NCBI GenBank assembly: GCA_934773085.1
Contig: CAKVMU010000125.1
Coordinates: 1-5,362 of the forward strand
Reading direction: 5' to 3'
DNA length: 5,362 bases
Origin: an uncultured Candidatus Melainabacteria bacterium
GTDB taxonomy: Bacteria; Cyanobacteriota; Vampirovibrionia; Gastranaerophilales; Gastranaerophilaceae
A program made the translations under genes and the position numbers. Below the pieces are notes generated by a model, which was not told the origin of the DNA, did no database searches, and saw only the letters and a list, made by a program, of their open reading frames with translations. This document shows, in pieces, positions 1-4,829 of the stretch; within the stretch, counting starts at the first letter, position 1; every line of letters begins with the position of its first letter.

Positions 1-708
1 TGTATTACCAGGACCAACACCTAAAGCAGGGTTTCCTGATGAATAAGCTGCTTTAACCATGCCAGGACCACCTGTAGCAAGGATACAATCGATAGAAGGG
101 TGTTTCATCAATGCGCTTGAAAGTTCGATTGAAGGAACATCAATCCATCCGATAATGTTTTCTGGAGCACCAGCTTTAACTGCAGCATCAAGAACTAGCT
201 TAGCAGCAGCAATTGTACATTTTTTTGCTCTTGGGTGTGGTGAGAAGATAATACCATTTCTTGTTTTAAGAGAAATCAAAGATTTGAAAATTGCTGTTGA
301 AGTAGGGTTTGTAGTAGGTACGATACCTGCCAAAACACCTAGAGGTTCAGCAACGACTTTGATACCGTTAGCTTTATCTTCTTTTATAATACCGCAAGTT
401 TTTGCGTGTTTGTGTTTGTTGTAGATGTATTCAGAAGCGAAGTGGTTTTTGATGATTTTGTCTTCAAGAACACCCATTCCTGTTTCTTCAATAGCCATTT
501 TCGCCAAAGGAATACGAGCCTTGTCTGCAGCAGCAGCAGCTGCTTTGAATATTGCATCAACTTTTTCTTGAGAGAAAGTTGCAAATATTCTTTGTGCTTT
601 GTGAACTTTAGAAATTAAAACTTCTAGCTGATCGAGAGTTTCAACAACTTCCGGAGCATTAAGAGTTTTTTCTAAATTTTCAACTGTTTTTTTAGTTTTC
701 GTTGCCAT
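1..708 (-). CDS. adhE: Bifunctional acetaldehyde-CoA/alcohol dehydrogenase AdhE, N-terminal part (3' end outside window)
   Basis: AdhE reduces acetyl-CoA to acetaldehyde and then to ethanol, reoxidising NADH during fermentation; it is cytoplasmic and in known cases assembles into spirosome filaments. The 236 codons present are the N-terminal half of the aldehyde dehydrogenase domain and run off the left edge in an open frame. They align over nearly their whole length with E. coli AdhE as I remember it: ARIPLAKMA near 64-72, KNHFASEYIYN near 87-97, the run from PTTNPTSTAIFKSL to SLKTRN at 131-151, FSPHPRAK at 155-162, and the glycine-rich ATGGPGMVKAAYSSG at 211-225. An extra 19 or so residues precede the region where E. 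coli AdhE begins. The catalytic cysteine and the iron-dependent alcohol dehydrogenase domain would lie beyond the window, so bifunctionality is inferred. The ATG is fixed by AGGAG 11 nt upstream and by a promoter at 751-779. A single-domain acetaldehyde dehydrogenase is the alternative. Confidence 0.95.
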   Translation of the reverse strand, partial: MATKTKKTVENLEKTLNAPEVVETLDQLEVLISKVHKAQRIFATFSQEKVDAIFKAAAAAADKARIPLAKMAIEETGMGVLEDKIIKNHFASEYIYNKHKHAKTCGIIKEDKANGIKVVAEPLGVLAGIVPTTNPTSTAIFKSLISLKTRNGIIFSPHPRAKKCTIAAAKLVLDAAVKAGAPENIIGWIDVPSIELSSALMKHPSIDCILATGGPGMVKAAYSSGNPALGVGPGNT

Positions 709-973: not shown

Positions 974-2206
974 CTAAATTCCGAATTCTTGGAATTTTAC
1001 ATTCGGAGTCAATAAATTCGGTTGTCCTTCGGGATTTTTATTTCCGTCGTTTGATTCTGTATTTGTAACTGTTTCTAAATCAGTTTTTACTGCTTTTTGT
1101 AACGCTTCATTAGTTGCTTGAACGCCTGCCTCGCCAACAAATGAACCAATACTTGTTATAACCGGCTCTAATGCAGAGTTCCAAGCTCCGACATAACCTG
1201 AGAACTCATTCAATTTGCTGCCGATTGAAGTTTCAAAATGAGCCAAAATTTCTGTATTATTGCTCAAGCCACCAATACCTTGCATTACAGTTCTCAAGTT
1301 TTGAACAGCACCGCCGATTCTTGTTGAACCTGCAGTATTTTGGTCATTTGCTACTCTATACAATTTAGGAGCTGTAGACGCAGTAAGATAATTTGAAGAT
1401 GCTGCTTCTGCAGCTGCTTGTGCAGACGCACCGGTTACTTCATTTGAAACACCAGTTGCATTGCTTTGAACATTATTTTGTATTTCAGCTGCACCGTCTT
1501 GTGCAATTTCGGTTATTTTCATTTGACCGTCTTGTTGAATTTCAACTGCGTTACCTTTTGCTGTTTCAATTTGAGTAACAGCAGCTTCTACTTTAGAGCT
1601 TGCATCTTCAACAGTTGCTTGAATATCAGCCATTGCAGAAGTTATCTCAACAATACTATTTGACAATCCTTGAATTTCGTTAAGCAAACTTGCTCTTTCT
1701 TTAGCAGTTTTTGCACTCGCTAATTCTTCTTGTTTTTCTTGAATTTGTTTAATTATTTCATTAATCTGTTCTTGTTTTGCCTGTAATTCTTCAGAAGTTT
1801 TCTTTAACAAATTTGAAGCACTTACAACAATATCAGATTGTCCTTTTACTTCATTAGAGATTTCTGAAATCTGATTCTTCAATTCAGCTTCAGCGGCTTT
1901 TTGTTCTTTTTCAATTTCAGCAGCTCTTTTTGAATTATTTTTAACATCTCTTTTTGCAGCTTGTGCCTCATTAGAGATTAATTTGTCTATGATTGACATT
2001 ACGCTATTGATTAAGTTTTGGATACCTGCTGCTTTCTGGCTATCATCATCACTTGCAATTTGTTCTACAGAATTAATGCCGTTAAAAATACAATTTACGT
2101 AAGAAGAATCATTACCAGATACCCCGCCCAATGAGCCTAATTGACCAAAAAGGCTTTGTGCTTGATTTAAATAAGTATTAAATTCTGAATTGTTAATGCT
2201 CGTCAT
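974..2206 (-). CDS. Unrecognised 410-residue alanine/glutamate/glutamine-rich coiled-coil protein
   Basis: I do not recognise the family. Residues 1-60 are polar with a glycine/serine stretch (GQLGSLGG at 21-28) and the only cysteine, at 39. Residues about 61-80 are an amphipathic helix. From about 80 to 270 the protein is long charged helix with coiled-coil character. Residues 222-243 carry an 11-residue repeat (EIQQDGQMKIT, then EIAQDGAAEIQ). Residues 300-375 are a glycine-containing, more hydrophobic helical part, and the last 35 or so are polar and probably disordered. There is no signal peptide and no clear membrane segment. It may be a structural, surface or secreted non-canonical protein, but function is unknown. 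The start is less certain than the frame: only a weak GAAAG-like site precedes the ATG, though no better in-frame start is evident. The stop is followed in frame by a second TAG (TAG-GGG-TAG). It is a single-gene unit ending in the hairpin at 851-887. Confidence 0.85.
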   Translation of the reverse strand: MTSINNSEFNTYLNQAQSLFGQLGSLGGVSGNDSSYVNCIFNGINSVEQIASDDDSQKAAGIQNLINSVMSIIDKLISNEAQAAKRDVKNNSKRAAEIEKEQKAAEAELKNQISEISNEVKGQSDIVVSASNLLKKTSEELQAKQEQINEIIKQIQEKQEELASAKTAKERASLLNEIQGLSNSIVEITSAMADIQATVEDASSKVEAAVTQIETAKGNAVEIQQDGQMKITEIAQDGAAEIQNNVQSNATGVSNEVTGASAQAAAEAASSNYLTASTAPKLYRVANDQNTAGSTRIGGAVQNLRTVMQGIGGLSNNTEILAHFETSIGSKLNEFSGYVGAWNSALEPVITSIGSFVGEAGVQATNEALQKAVKTDLETVTNTESNDGNKNPEGQPNLLTPNVKFQEFGI

Positions 2207-2395: not shown

Positions 2396-2662
2396 ATGCG
2401 AATCAGTCCAATATCCCAGAACAACCAATCATTCAAAGCCGTAAATCAGAAATATTACAAACAGGCGCAAGAGTGGATTAAAGATTGCAATTTTGTTGCA
2501 GATGATGTGTTAAATTGCTTAAGATATGATGTTTATGCGAATGAAATTCCGTTGCAAGACGGTATTGATACATTAAGGGCTATCAAAAAAATATTAACAA
2601 AATCTGATATTACTATAGAAAGAGATTTAAAAATTTATTATAATTTGCTTCAAGGAAAATAA
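2396..2662 (+). CDS. Small paralogous protein, copy 1 of 3 (88 aa), unknown function
   Basis: First member of a tandem family that I cannot assign to a named family. It opens with a head nearly identical in all three copies (MRISPISQNNQSFKA at 1-15, then VNQKYYKQAQEWIKDCN). A diverged, probably all-helical body follows, with family-conserved LRYD at 42-45, an NEIP segment, and DGIDTL then AIKK near 55-65. It has no signal peptide or membrane segment. AGGAG at 2384-2388, 7 nt before the ATG, sets the start. One codon is missing relative to its siblings after LRYD (YA-N where they have LWK). The frame stops at TAA where the siblings have CAA; four codons later an in-frame TAG lies at the position of the third copy's stop, so it looks truncated by one C-to-T change. 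It is first in a probable three-gene operon. Confidence 0.85.
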   Translation: MRISPISQNNQSFKAVNQKYYKQAQEWIKDCNFVADDVLNCLRYDVYANEIPLQDGIDTLRAIKKILTKSDITIERDLKIYYNLLQGK

Positions 2663-2674
2663 TTCAAGCGATAG

Positions 2675-2784
2675 TACCTATTTCAAGTCTTTGAGCAAAT
2701 ATTCACAAGGAGTAAAAAATGCGAATCAATCCAATATCTCAGAACAACCAATCATTCAAAGCGGTAAATCAGAAATATTACAAA
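2675..2784 (+). repeat. Constant segment of unit 2: 44-bp spacer, ribosome binding site and first 22 codons
   Basis: This 110-bp block recurs at 2998-3107. The 44-bp spacers differ at only 3 positions, and the 22 codons differ at 6 positions, all but one of them silent. In front of copy 1 the matching spacer is mostly lost; only about 15 nt around the ribosome binding site remain alike, and the constant coding part there is 2396-2461. Confidence 0.85.
2708..2712 (+). promoter_or_regulatory. Ribosome binding site of small gene copy 2
   Basis: AGGAG with 6-nt spacing to the ATG at 2719, inside the constant leader shared with copy 3. Confidence 0.85.
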
Positions 2785-2994
2785 CAGGCGCAAGAGTGGA
2801 TTAAGGATTGCAATTGGGTTTCATATGATATTTATTGTCGTTTAAGGTATGACATTATGCTTTGGAAGGAAATTCCGGTTCAAGACGGTATAGATACACT
2901 GTTGGCAATAAAAAAACTATTAAACAAACCAAGTGTTGCGTTAGAAGAAGATTTGAAGCTATATCAAAATTTGCTAAAGAAACAATCTAAGTAA
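2719..2994 (+). CDS. Small paralogous protein, copy 2 of 3 (91 aa), unknown function
   Basis: Second member of the tandem family. Residues 1-32 match copy 1 except for serine to asparagine at position 4; in DNA, only about four bases differ over that stretch. From residue 33 the two diverge sharply, although the skeleton is kept: W at 33, LRYD at 42-45, LWKEIP at 48-53, DGIDTL at 56-61, AIKK at 63-66, and a final helix LEEDLKLYQNLLKK. The body is charged and helical, with no membrane segment or signal peptide. It ends in two adjacent stops, TAA then TAG; the TAG matches the stop used by copy 3, and the TAA replaces that copy's CAA. It lies 56 bp after copy 1 and 47 bp before copy 3 and is probably co-transcribed with both. 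Function is unknown. Confidence 0.85.
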   Translation: MRINPISQNNQSFKAVNQKYYKQAQEWIKDCNWVSYDIYCRLRYDIMLWKEIPVQDGIDTLLAIKKLLNKPSVALEEDLKLYQNLLKKQSK

Positions 2995-2997
2995 TAG

Positions 2998-3107
2998 CAC
3001 CTATTTCAAGTCTTTGAGTCAATATTCACAAGGAGTAAAAAATGCGAATCAGTCCAATATCCCAAAACAATCAATCATTCAAAGCAGTAAATCAGAAATA
3101 TTACAAG
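2998..3107 (+). repeat. Constant segment of unit 3: 44-bp spacer, ribosome binding site and first 22 codons
   Basis: Direct repeat of 2675-2784. It ends abruptly after codon 22 (at KYYK), where copy 3 leaves the other two copies in both DNA and protein. Confidence 0.85.
3031..3035 (+). promoter_or_regulatory. Ribosome binding site of small gene copy 3
   Basis: AGGAG with 6-nt spacing to the ATG at 3042, in the same context as copy 2. Confidence 0.85.
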
Positions 3108-3323
3108 AGAGCTGAGAGGGAAATTAGTCGACGAGGCTGGATAACAGAGGATTTGCTATGTTGTTTGAGATATGATGTTTTACTATGGAAAGAAATCTCT
3201 TTTAAGGATGGTGTAGATACTTTATGTGCTATTAAGAATATATTAAAAGAGCCGGATAATTCTCTGGAGTACGATTTAAGTGCATATGAAAAAATGTTTC
3301 AAGAGAGTCAATCTAAGCAATAG
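3042..3323 (+). CDS. Small paralogous protein, copy 3 of 3 (93 aa), unknown function
   Basis: Third and most diverged member of the tandem family. The head of 22 residues (MRISPISQNNQSFKA, then VNQKYYK) equals that of copy 1. Residues 23-41 are unlike the siblings and rich in arginine and glutamate (RAEREISRRGW). The family skeleton then returns: LRYD, LLWKEI, DGVDTL, AIKNIL, and a final helix with DLSAYEKMF. It reads through the two codons where its siblings stop and uses the TAG they retain as an unused in-frame stop, so this is probably the ancestral length. The last 11 bp overlap the stop end of the opposite-strand gene at 3313-4383, and no terminator is visible between the two. There is no membrane segment or signal peptide. 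Function is unknown. Confidence 0.85.
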   Translation: MRISPISQNNQSFKAVNQKYYKRAEREISRRGWITEDLLCCLRYDVLLWKEISFKDGVDTLCAIKNILKEPDNSLEYDLSAYEKMFQESQSKQ

Positions 3324-4383
3324 CATTACCAATTGCTGCACTAGCAATAGAACCCAAACCCATTCCGATTATAGTTCCAACAGGACCGAAGGTTGAGCCT
3401 ATAGCGCCCAAAACTCCTGTTAATGCAGCTGAACTACCCCAGCGGACAACCGCTTTTCCAATTTCTTTCACAGGATTTTTCCCTTTGTTTATTTCATGCA
3501 TAGCATTTATACCCTCAATTCCTCCGGATACGACTAAACCTATAACAGGAGTTCTGGTCATAGCTCTTGCAGTAAGTTTGCCAAACGTACTTTTTCCGGT
3601 AAATTTAAAAGCTTTTACATAAATTGGAAATTCATCTGTATATGTAATATCTTTTATAGACGTTATTATTTCTTCTGGTGAAATTTTAGCTTTTTGTAAA
3701 AAATTATGACCTAATTTTGTTTCAATTAAACTTTTATCGTTATTTACAATAAATTTAGTTAATTTTTTGAATTTATTTTTTGGATTGTTAGGATTCAGAA
3801 ATTTATGTAAAAGAGTTCCTCTGAAGAAAGAAAACGGGTGTTGGTATTCTTTAAAATTATACAAACCATTGTATTTCTTGCCGGTACAAAAAGCTTTTAC
3901 TTGTTTGTAGGCTTCAAAGACGTCACGCAATTCTTCCGGTCCGTTGAGAGCAGCTAGTGACCATAAGGCGCTTGCACCCATATAGTTTTTATCTATTATT
4001 TTTTCCGGAACGCTGTTTAATTTTCCTACAACAGGCAGACCTTCAAAAGCTACTGGACTGTGAAATGATTTTGGTTGCTTGCTGTGACGGTCAGTATAGT
4101 TATCTCTTGGCGTAGCGTAGCGCTCTGAGTTTTCTTGCGTATTATACATTATCGGAATTGGTTGATAATCTGGCAAAACCGGTGTCTCAAAGATTGACAT
4201 GTCCCATGACATTGGCAAACCGGATAAATATTCAGCCATTAATGGGGTATACATTTCAATTGGAGGCGCCAAACGATTCACAACGCTTTGCAAATCTTGT
4301 GCTATGTCCGAAAAATGATTTATTGAATATACACTATAAATTGAATTAACCAATTTAACACACCTTAGAATAACTTCACACAT
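3313..4383 (-). CDS. Unrecognised protein with glycine-zipper-like hydrophobic C-terminus (up to 356 aa)
   Basis: I do not recognise the family. Residues 1-60 have modest hydrophobicity but no proper signal peptide. Residues 60-110 are proline- and polar-rich, probably disordered. Residues 110-260 are a basic, aromatic-rich soluble region (SPVAFEGLPVVGKL at 109-122). Two hydrophobic stretches follow: about 279-297 (PVIGLVVSGGIEG), and 316-356, a run rich in glycine, alanine and isoleucine (LGAIGSTFGPVG at 325-336, GMGLGSIASAAIG at 340-352). Such glycine-zipper tails occur in membrane-inserting and pore-forming proteins and in some polymorphic toxins; a function here is inference. The start is uncertain: the ATG at 4383 lacks a ribosome binding site, whereas TTG at 4353 has AAGGTG 7 nt before it and would give 346 residues. 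The stop overlaps small gene copy 3 by 11 bp, tail to tail. No terminator follows, so its transcript may run antisense through the small genes. Confidence 0.8.
   Translation of the reverse strand: MCEVILRCVKLVNSIYSVYSINHFSDIAQDLQSVVNRLAPPIEMYTPLMAEYLSGLPMSWDMSIFETPVLPDYQPIPIMYNTQENSERYATPRDNYTDRHSKQPKSFHSPVAFEGLPVVGKLNSVPEKIIDKNYMGASALWSLAALNGPEELRDVFEAYKQVKAFCTGKKYNGLYNFKEYQHPFSFFRGTLLHKFLNPNNPKNKFKKLTKFIVNNDKSLIETKLGHNFLQKAKISPEEIITSIKDITYTDEFPIYVKAFKFTGKSTFGKLTARAMTRTPVIGLVVSGGIEGINAMHEINKGKNPVKEIGKAVVRWGSSAALTGVLGAIGSTFGPVGTIIGMGLGSIASAAIGNAIA
4361..4366 (-). promoter_or_regulatory. Candidate ribosome binding site for an internal TTG start of the glycine-zipper gene
   Basis: AAGGTG on the minus strand (4366-4361) is followed 7 nt later by an in-frame TTG at 4353-4351. 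The upstream ATG at 4383 is preceded only by a purine-poor stretch (CAACTTTATAC). The TTG is therefore a plausible true start, especially since the divergent neighbour also starts with TTG. Confidence 0.45.
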
Positions 4384-4565: not shown

Positions 4566-4829
4566 TTGAAAAGGATATCAGAACAGAATATTCTTACTTT
4601 AAAAGAGCAAGAAGTAGTATATTGTTTAGCTTCCGGCTTATCAAATAAGGATATAGCTACTCGTATGAAGGTTTCCATACATACGGTGAAAGCTCATCTT
4701 GAGTCTATTTATGAAAAGCTAAAAGTAGAAAATCGTTTACAAGCTGTTATAAGAGCATTACAGTTAAATTTTATTAACATAAATGAAATTGATATAATTA
4801 ATGTTGATACAGACAAAAGATATAAGTAG
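4566..4829 (+). CDS. Stand-alone LuxR/GerE-type helix-turn-helix DNA-binding protein (87 aa)
   Basis: Residues about 9-68 form a complete LuxR C-terminal (GerE-like) four-helix DNA-binding domain. LTLKEQEVVYCLASG is the first helix with the family's conserved glutamate, SNKDIATRM the scaffold helix, SIHTVKAHLESIYEKL the recognition helix with the TVKAH signature, and VENRLQAV the dimerisation helix. No receiver or ligand-binding domain precedes it, so it resembles the short GerE class of transcription factors rather than a response regulator. About 20 polar, asparagine- and aspartate-rich residues follow the domain. It starts with TTG behind AAGGA. Its promoter overlaps a perfect inverted repeat, which suggests autoregulation. 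It diverges from the glycine-zipper gene across 182 bp and may control it; its actual targets are unknown. Its stop lies 14 bp before the terminator shared with pnp. Confidence 0.88.
   Translation: MKRISEQNILTLKEQEVVYCLASGLSNKDIATRMKVSIHTVKAHLESIYEKLKVENRLQAVIRALQLNFININEIDIINVDTDKRYK

Follow-up and report, generated by a model that had tools for sequence, protein, structure and literature searches.

Small tagged genes of Gastranaerophilales probably belong to a dispersed two-gene module diversified by segmental gene conversion

Results

Architecture of the three-copy array

The window, that is, the whole stretch of 5,362 nucleotides that was analysed (contig CAKVMU010000125.1 of assembly GCA_934773085.1), contains three small open reading frames (ORFs) arranged head to tail on the forward strand. 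Copy 1 (2396..2662, 88 aa) is preceded by an AAGGAG ribosome site and matches the family profile, copy 2 (2719..2994, 91 aa) was modelled with AlphaFold2, and copy 3 (3042..3323, 93 aa) overlaps at its 3′ end with a partner gene by 11 nt. Each copy is composed of a constant head of codons 1–22, hereafter the tag (2396..2461, 2719..2784 and 3042..3107), and a variable body (2462..2659, 2785..2991 and 3108..3320). The copies are separated by spacers of 56 nt (2663..2718) and 47 nt (2995..3041), and the last 47 nt of the former, immediately upstream of copy 2, are identical to the latter, upstream of copy 3, at 44/47 positions. As originally predicted, the start codons at 2396, 2719 and 3042 are twice spaced by exactly 323 bp. 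This period is compensated and not locked, being made up of 267 + 56 nt for copy 1 and 276 + 47 nt for copy 2, and the periods of other arrays differ (404–406 in L001 and 335 in L003). A promoter scan upstream of copy 1 gave only a weak match (2313–2340, 9/12), the region holding 17 matches compared with 12.5 in shuffles.

The partner gene lies on the reverse strand (3313..4353) and encodes 346 aa; its start codon is TTG, preceded by AAGGTG. This start was set by the alignment of relatives; the longest ORF, with an ATG start, extends to 4383. The neighbours within the window encode an aldehyde dehydrogenase, a coiled-coil protein, a LuxR-type helix-turn-helix protein, and KH and S1 domains, the last presumably as in the C-terminal part of PNPase, and the window outside the array and its partner fits a bacterial chromosome. 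The 410 aa coiled-coil protein adjoining the array (974–2206, reverse strand) has only weak SMC-like coiled-coil matches, and beyond the partner lies a stand-alone LuxR/GerE helix-turn-helix protein of 87 aa with a TTG start (4566–4829, forward strand).

Constant head and variable body

The original prediction had described a leader and head nearly invariant in DNA, silent sites included, in front of a body strongly diverged in both DNA and protein. The divergence of the body is borne out by pooled Nei–Gojobori estimates (pS 0.67, 78.2/116.0; pN 0.299, 145.8/487.0). By comparison, the heads differ pairwise at 3, 4 and 6 of 66 nt, with 2, 4 and 5 silent differences, and the pooled values are pS 0.31 (11.0/36.0) and pN 0.012 (2.0/162.0). 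Near-invariance is too strong a term for the silent sites, and the leader of copy 1 has only its last ~20 nt in common with the other two. A skeleton within the body is likewise retained in part: LRYD, DG[IV]DTL and AIK occur in all three copies, but LWKEI only in copies 2 and 3.

The step in silent divergence along the gene, which had been proposed as a check, is present. In a codon-column permutation the head/body step was reached 146/20000 times at silent sites and 0/20000 times at replacement sites, and 6/93 circular 22-codon blocks, the head itself counted, are as silent-conserved as the head. Because this many permutations and blocks reach it, the silent step in the window is judged real but moderate; in genome G256 it is sharp. 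The border between head and body varies by pair, with copies 1 and 2 resembling each other to about codon 33 and copy 3 diverging from codon 23 on.

The small protein and its family

In the AlphaFold2 model of copy 2 (mean pLDDT 80.8), residues 1–17 are predicted to be unstructured and are followed by four helices (residues 18–90), with the VNQKYY core running into helix 1. Copy 2 had no PDB match of note, the best Foldseek E value being 1.7. The small genes had no match in Pfam or PADLOC, their NCBIfam matches (E 0.06–0.09) were taken as chance, and copy 1 gave one PHROGs match (E 0.003) to an entry without assigned function. An initial contig scan with copy 2 alone found no relative, and a DNA search with copy 3 matched short stretches in 2/10 genomes. 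At E 1e-3, 31 relatives of the small protein were obtained, and no precomputed Pfam domain is recorded for any of them. Five public loci of the family lie in three Candidatus Gastranaerophilales MAGs (L001 and L002, L004, L005) and a goat-colon bacterium (L003), and it is by similarity that the window is assigned to this order. A phage origin was rejected, as no relative was found in viral contigs (query A1) and none for copy 3 plus partner in 50,697 phage records.

Further copies, which the original prediction had suggested seeking in related genomes, are plentiful: the family profile gives 63 matches at 52 loci in 19/286 Gastranaerophilales genomes. Each of these 19 family genomes holds 1–9 small genes, which are single or arrayed, with arrays of two at 7 loci and of five at one. 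Numbers of called genes are rough throughout, as a simple script was used that keeps the longest ORFs without overlap and chooses the start by ribosome site. Among the matches listed in our search of the Gastranaerophilales literature on secretion, flagella, effectors and gene conversion, no title concerned this family.

The partner gene and the two-gene module

The C-terminal third of the partner is rich in Gly and Ala and helical in its predicted model, which is of mediocre quality (pLDDT 67.6). The partner has 439 relatives at E<=1e-3; among the 120 of these listed, few are named and all of these are called 'hypothetical protein'. It had no match in Pfam, NCBIfam or PADLOC, and neither fold nor sequence comparison with the PDB gave a match at E below 0.2 (best Foldseek E 0.74). 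Its C-terminal part has weak PHROGs matches, the best (E 8.4e-6) to an entry without assigned function and others to tail lysin and tape measure.

At 48/52 family loci the partner is matched no more than 400 nt away, and at 37/48 of these the match spans at least 600 nt; the four loci without a near partner are in G021, G098, G130 and G277, of which that in G277 lies at a contig end. The partner is present in 55/286 genomes, and all 19 family genomes are among these 55. Wherever gene tables were made, small gene and partner stand tail to tail, and their stop codons either overlap or are separated by a few to some tens of nt; at one exceptional locus (G136:C4, L045) both genes point in the same direction. 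The module is thus a small gene (tag plus body, ~85–160 aa) facing a partner of 280–350 aa, and it adjoins unrelated genes both between genomes and within one genome. The DNA common to compared module copies measures 1160–1369 bp in five single-gene comparisons and 1711 bp in one two-gene comparison, and comprises only the gene pair and short flanks; no terminal repeats or target duplications were noticed at the ends of 14 modules inspected by eye. The unit is one to five small genes with a tail-to-tail partner, larger than the three-gene array first described.

In the five-gene array of G001, each of the four spacers, read on the opposite strand, matches the final 33–34 positions of the partner profile. 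Because the spacers keep these partner tails, the array likely represents repeated modules from which the inner partners were lost. The window spacers of 56 and 47 nt are too short to be assigned to partner remnants.

More distant modules were sampled at 20 partner loci hand-chosen from weaker partner matches (8 in G015, 6 in G009, 2 each in G008 and G021, and 1 each in G026 and G014). A tail-to-tail small ORF of 87–158 aa is found at 18/20 of them. The motif [NSTAVGI]F[GQKST] occurs within residues 5–65 in 18/18 of these ORFs compared with 64/194 background genes of up to 160 aa, although the 18 are not independent because many are paralogues. In an alignment of five of them, identity between types is 18–20%. 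The distant modules thus carry dissimilar bodies behind similar tags, the common segment being a short, loose motif. A still different arrangement is found at L181–L191, in some of the partner-bearing genomes outside the 19, where a distant partner homologue occurs once per genome without a small gene, next to a gene that looks like prfB; we regard this as the likely ancestor. The N-terminus of these homologues is itself tag-like in some cases (VSFSAQN).

Exchange of segments between module copies

The clearest comparison is provided by the modules on C18 and C47 of G256, whose partners are 98%, tags 100% and bodies 56% identical. At silent sites the body (pS 0.63, 22.8/36.0) contrasts with the partner (0.05, 9.0/191.7) and the tag (0.16, 2.0/12.7), and in 60-bp DNA windows 11 consecutive partner windows are identical, the tag window reaches 0.97 and the body 0.65–0.77. 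A pair in G136 behaves similarly but less markedly, with body pS 0.36 (13.5/37.0) versus 0.06 (12.0/198.7) for the partner and 0.14 for the tag. In 4/6 module pairs (G098, G222, G245 and G001; loci L041, L070, L107/L054 and L081/L002) the partner also contains a diverged stretch (module columns ~540–840, very roughly residues 115–200), and exchange is therefore not limited to the body.

Orthologous sites in related genomes were also compared. At the site shared by G256 C18 and G187 C20, the flanks are 0.950 and 0.986 identical and the tag 0.985, whereas the body is 0.687, the leader 0.70 and the partner 0.861; the leader and partner values suggest that part of the exchange may involve whole modules. 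Two other orthologous sites, with a smaller drop in the body, have tags of 0.970 and 0.909, bodies of 0.803 and 0.783, leaders of 0.867 and 1.00 and partners of 0.867 and 0.901, and over the three sites the flanks are 0.93–0.99 identical. The bodies at the first site reappear at other addresses: that of G256 C18 has a counterpart of 0.98 identity at G187 C31, and that of G187 C20 one of 0.99 identity at G256 C47. The addresses G256 C47 and G187 C31, which seem to correspond, share a third body at 1.00 identity. The reverse combination is seen between G098 and G122, which share a body at 0.92 behind tags of 0.54.

Among the copies compared, 41/49 find their best tag match, and 22/49 their best body match, within their own genome (ties counted; 5.3 and 2.9 with random labels). 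The mean tag identity is at least 0.87 within 8/14 multi-copy sets (0.87–1.00; the window, G001, G191, G277, G222, G098, G256 and G187) and 0.39 between genomes, and the other six sets are not uniform (G003 0.35, G136 0.36, G107 0.37, G245 0.56, G002 and G110 0.63). Identity within versus between genomes is 0.68 versus 0.39 for tags and 0.56 versus 0.35 for bodies, and the bodies are thus not free of homogenisation. Consistent with recombination, the PHI test on six G001 copies gave 2/1000, and the proteins P0005 and P0010 differ solely in residues 45–54. Recombination is deduced here from genome comparison, and many of the genomes are drafts.

Similar tags on unrelated proteins

A DNA pattern of ribosome site plus MKINxI gave 81 matches in 117 genomes of the order compared with 3 for the backward pattern. 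In a draw from the phylum, the same pattern gave 71 matches in 46/85 genomes known from the order draw (backward control 3) and 10 matches in 8/109 others (backward 6), the latter being unmatched in base composition and perhaps including members of the order. Among the proteins found by the pattern, 20/28 (one a family member) carry [NSTGA]F[KGQRNT] in residues 8–55 compared with 161/762 genes, leaving 19/27 non-family proteins as tag-like; of the eight without the F motif, three look to us like IspD, an aminopeptidase and FlgH. A Pfam scan of twelve tag-like non-family proteins gave matches at E 0.01 or better for two, to a starch synthase domain in one case and far below the cut-off in the other.

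A tag regular expression applied to gene sets was clearly above chance in G222 (10/293; shuffles mean 1.16, max 5) and borderline in G245 (5/368; mean 0.95, max 5). A separate count gave 6/249, 3/162 and 4/166 compared with shuffle means of ~1, and includes some missed family members. The expression was not above chance in G005 (1/127; mean 0.35, max 4) or in G022, G029 and G064 (0/60), and its 2/110 matches in outgroups were not tag-like by eye. Unrelated Gastranaerophilales proteins beginning with M[KRQ][IV]...[NST]F[KGQ] include the starch-synthase-like L120 and large proteins without Pfam match (loci L111, L112, L114, L116, L118–L125, L128, L130, L133, L134 and L137; L061, L067, L069, L074, L078 and L079).

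A recurring Fli–FHIPEP operon

An operon in the order FliE, FliF, a gene of 338–355 aa (no Pfam match in G004), FliH and a divergent class of FHIPEP (FlhA/SctV) recurs whether or not a genome has a second FHIPEP class; it was assigned by Pfam in G004 (L080 7349–16007) and by eye in G005, G029 and G064 (L146 15080–18961, L151 12075–18188 and L152 11450–17560). In G004, a module (L080 11862–12963) and a TonB_C protein sit between the 346 aa gene of the operon and FliF; in G029 (L151) the corresponding genes are 67 bp apart. The operon possibly encodes a non-flagellar export apparatus across the order.

Discussion

A model of segmental gene conversion

Taken together, the three window genes probably encode the small protein of a dispersed two-gene module, within which segmental gene conversion would maintain the likeness of leader, tag and partner and exchange the bodies. 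Of the alternatives offered in the original prediction, gene conversion is the one that gains support, because silent-saturated bodies lie between near-identical flanks and the same bodies occur at other addresses in a kin genome; the uniform tags in 8/14 sets and the PHI result point the same way. Module copies recur at many sites in some Gastranaerophilales genomes; in this model, conversion between them would homogenise leader, tag and partner, and the bodies behind the tag would be exchanged and kept different. Tandem arrays would be repeated modules after loss of the inner partners. The tag may act as an address for export or envelope targeting, and the body may face a target that changes; the partner, one end of which is glycine-rich and helical in the model, putatively acts together with the small protein.

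The tag as a possible export signal

Reading the tag as an export signal is no more than a guess. In the most specific form of this guess, which is compatible with gene conversion as the main explanation, the tag would be a type III (flagellar-type) signal and the module would encode effector-like exported proteins, one signal being combined with new bodies; we regard this as possible but tentative. FHIPEP is found in 286/286 genomes of the order, in many with a best score of only ~710–740 bits, and the operon of its divergent class holds FliE, FliF, FliH and FHIPEP. The G004 module lies inside this operon and a G107 module lies ~1 kb from the other FHIPEP class. The tag is also unstructured in the predicted model and rich in N, Q, S and I, and it resembles tags of unrelated proteins. 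On the other hand, nearness to FHIPEP genes is seen at few of the 52 loci, and neither the FliE of the divergent operon nor a protein of G191 that we take to be flagellin-like carries the tag. Moreover, G336, G346 and G352 have the divergent FHIPEP class with zero tag-pattern matches, and 39/85 genomes of the order have no such match. According to a paper on a termite member (PMC5877343), reported Gastranaerophilales genomes contain partial flagella gene sets, and earlier authors were at odds over motility. Export by a flagellum-derived apparatus is a reasonable guess, but not more, because of these partial sets, the Fli operon and the presence of FHIPEP throughout. More doubtful still is the full combination, in which a dispersed, self-contained module would make variants of an effector-like exported protein through body exchange behind an N-terminal address common to the lineage, and a flagellum-derived, non-flagellar apparatus found across the order would read that address.

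Alternative explanations

The module might instead be a polymorphic toxin–immunity system, with the partner as a membrane-active toxin and the small genes as immunity proteins kept in arrays after toxin loss. The glycine-rich, predictedly helical end of the partner would suit such a toxin, only a short partner match is left at 11/48 paired loci, some of which are truncated by the end of the contig, and tails of the partner persist between the G001 copies. Partner and body distances also correlate (r 0.88 over 23 modules), but the most variable partner window (151–180) tracks the body less well (r 0.76) than the conserved windows 101–130 (0.80) and 251–280 (0.84), and partners 0.98 and 0.99 identical go with bodies only 0.56 and 0.82 identical. 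With no recognisable toxin domain in the partner (PADLOC, NCBIfam, Pfam) and a small-protein tag resembling that of unrelated proteins, we consider this reading unlikely.

Plain duplication without conversion, in which the head is under strong purifying and the body under diversifying selection, would account for the almost fixed replacement sites of the head and for a tag skeleton conserved across lineages. It is nevertheless improbable: selection on protein cannot explain silent saturation of the G256 body beside 11 identical 60-bp partner windows, nor does it fit bodies that occupy other addresses in a related genome or tags that are lineage-specific and uniform in 8/14 sets. A constraint on the 5′ end as peptide, also raised in the original prediction, holds for the skeleton M..[IV]...F[KQ][AK]VNQKY and not beyond it. 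A constraint on the 5′ end as RNA, as a translation leader or regulatory element, is very improbable: the likeness of copies 2 and 3 does extend outside the coding part, but the three heads have no stable or shared fold and fold no better than shuffles (z 0.88, −1.18 and 0.59), no Rfam match was found, and the tags differ strongly between lineages.

Comparison with known systems

Segmental conversion between module copies, the preferred reading, has a parallel in pilE/pilS of Neisseria gonorrhoeae, where conversion from paralogous copies replaces variable parts bordered by conserved or micro-homologous stretches, the promoter, ribosome site and 5′ coding part of pilE stay constant, and the silent copies are without the constant 5′ part (PMC6796969). 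As in that system, the variable segments of the module are silently diverged between near-identical flanks (G256 body pS 0.63 versus partner 0.05), and possible donor bodies exist in kin genomes (0.98 and 0.99 between different addresses in G256 and G187). Unlike pilS, the module copies observed have their own leader, ribosome site and tag and are scattered together with a partner gene, and none of them stands out as the one expressed locus. A ribosome site and ATG are present in the window copies and in those other inspected copies whose start was in view, and a putative promoter (TTGACA-16-TA[CA]AAT) was seen by eye upstream of copies in G001, G004 and G107.

Small, diverse and repeated genes beside one larger gene, which they can outlive, are also known from polymorphic toxin–immunity loci with orphan immunity genes. 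The tagged genes beside their partner share this appearance, but the module is tail to tail and has no known toxin domain, and among the partner windows none stands out as the one following the small protein. Diversity-generating retroelements concentrate diversity in one part of a gene by adenine-specific changes. Diversity is likewise confined to one part of the small protein gene here, but the changes in the window bodies are not confined to adenines (31/105 variable sites have no A in any copy), and bodies match other module copies. A further likeness is to terminal reassortment of type III effectors, in which a single N-terminal signal region is combined with various bodies (PMC7555288, which cites the original paper, Stavrinides et al. 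2006). The tagged proteins similarly have an N-terminal segment common to unrelated bodies, but in most copies the bodies are homologous, exchange takes place within one family and module, and export is putative.

Implications

Gastranaerophilales are widespread and largely uncultured gut bacteria, and their dealings with host or neighbours are little known. Gene conversion likely passes variable parts between the scattered copies of the small gene, and this would diversify the protein; visible diversification of such a module is a pointer to molecules whose interaction partner changes. The shared tag offers a handle for listing proteins that may be addressed alike, and it makes the purpose of the partial flagellar gene sets reported for these bacteria (PMC5877343) a concrete and testable question.
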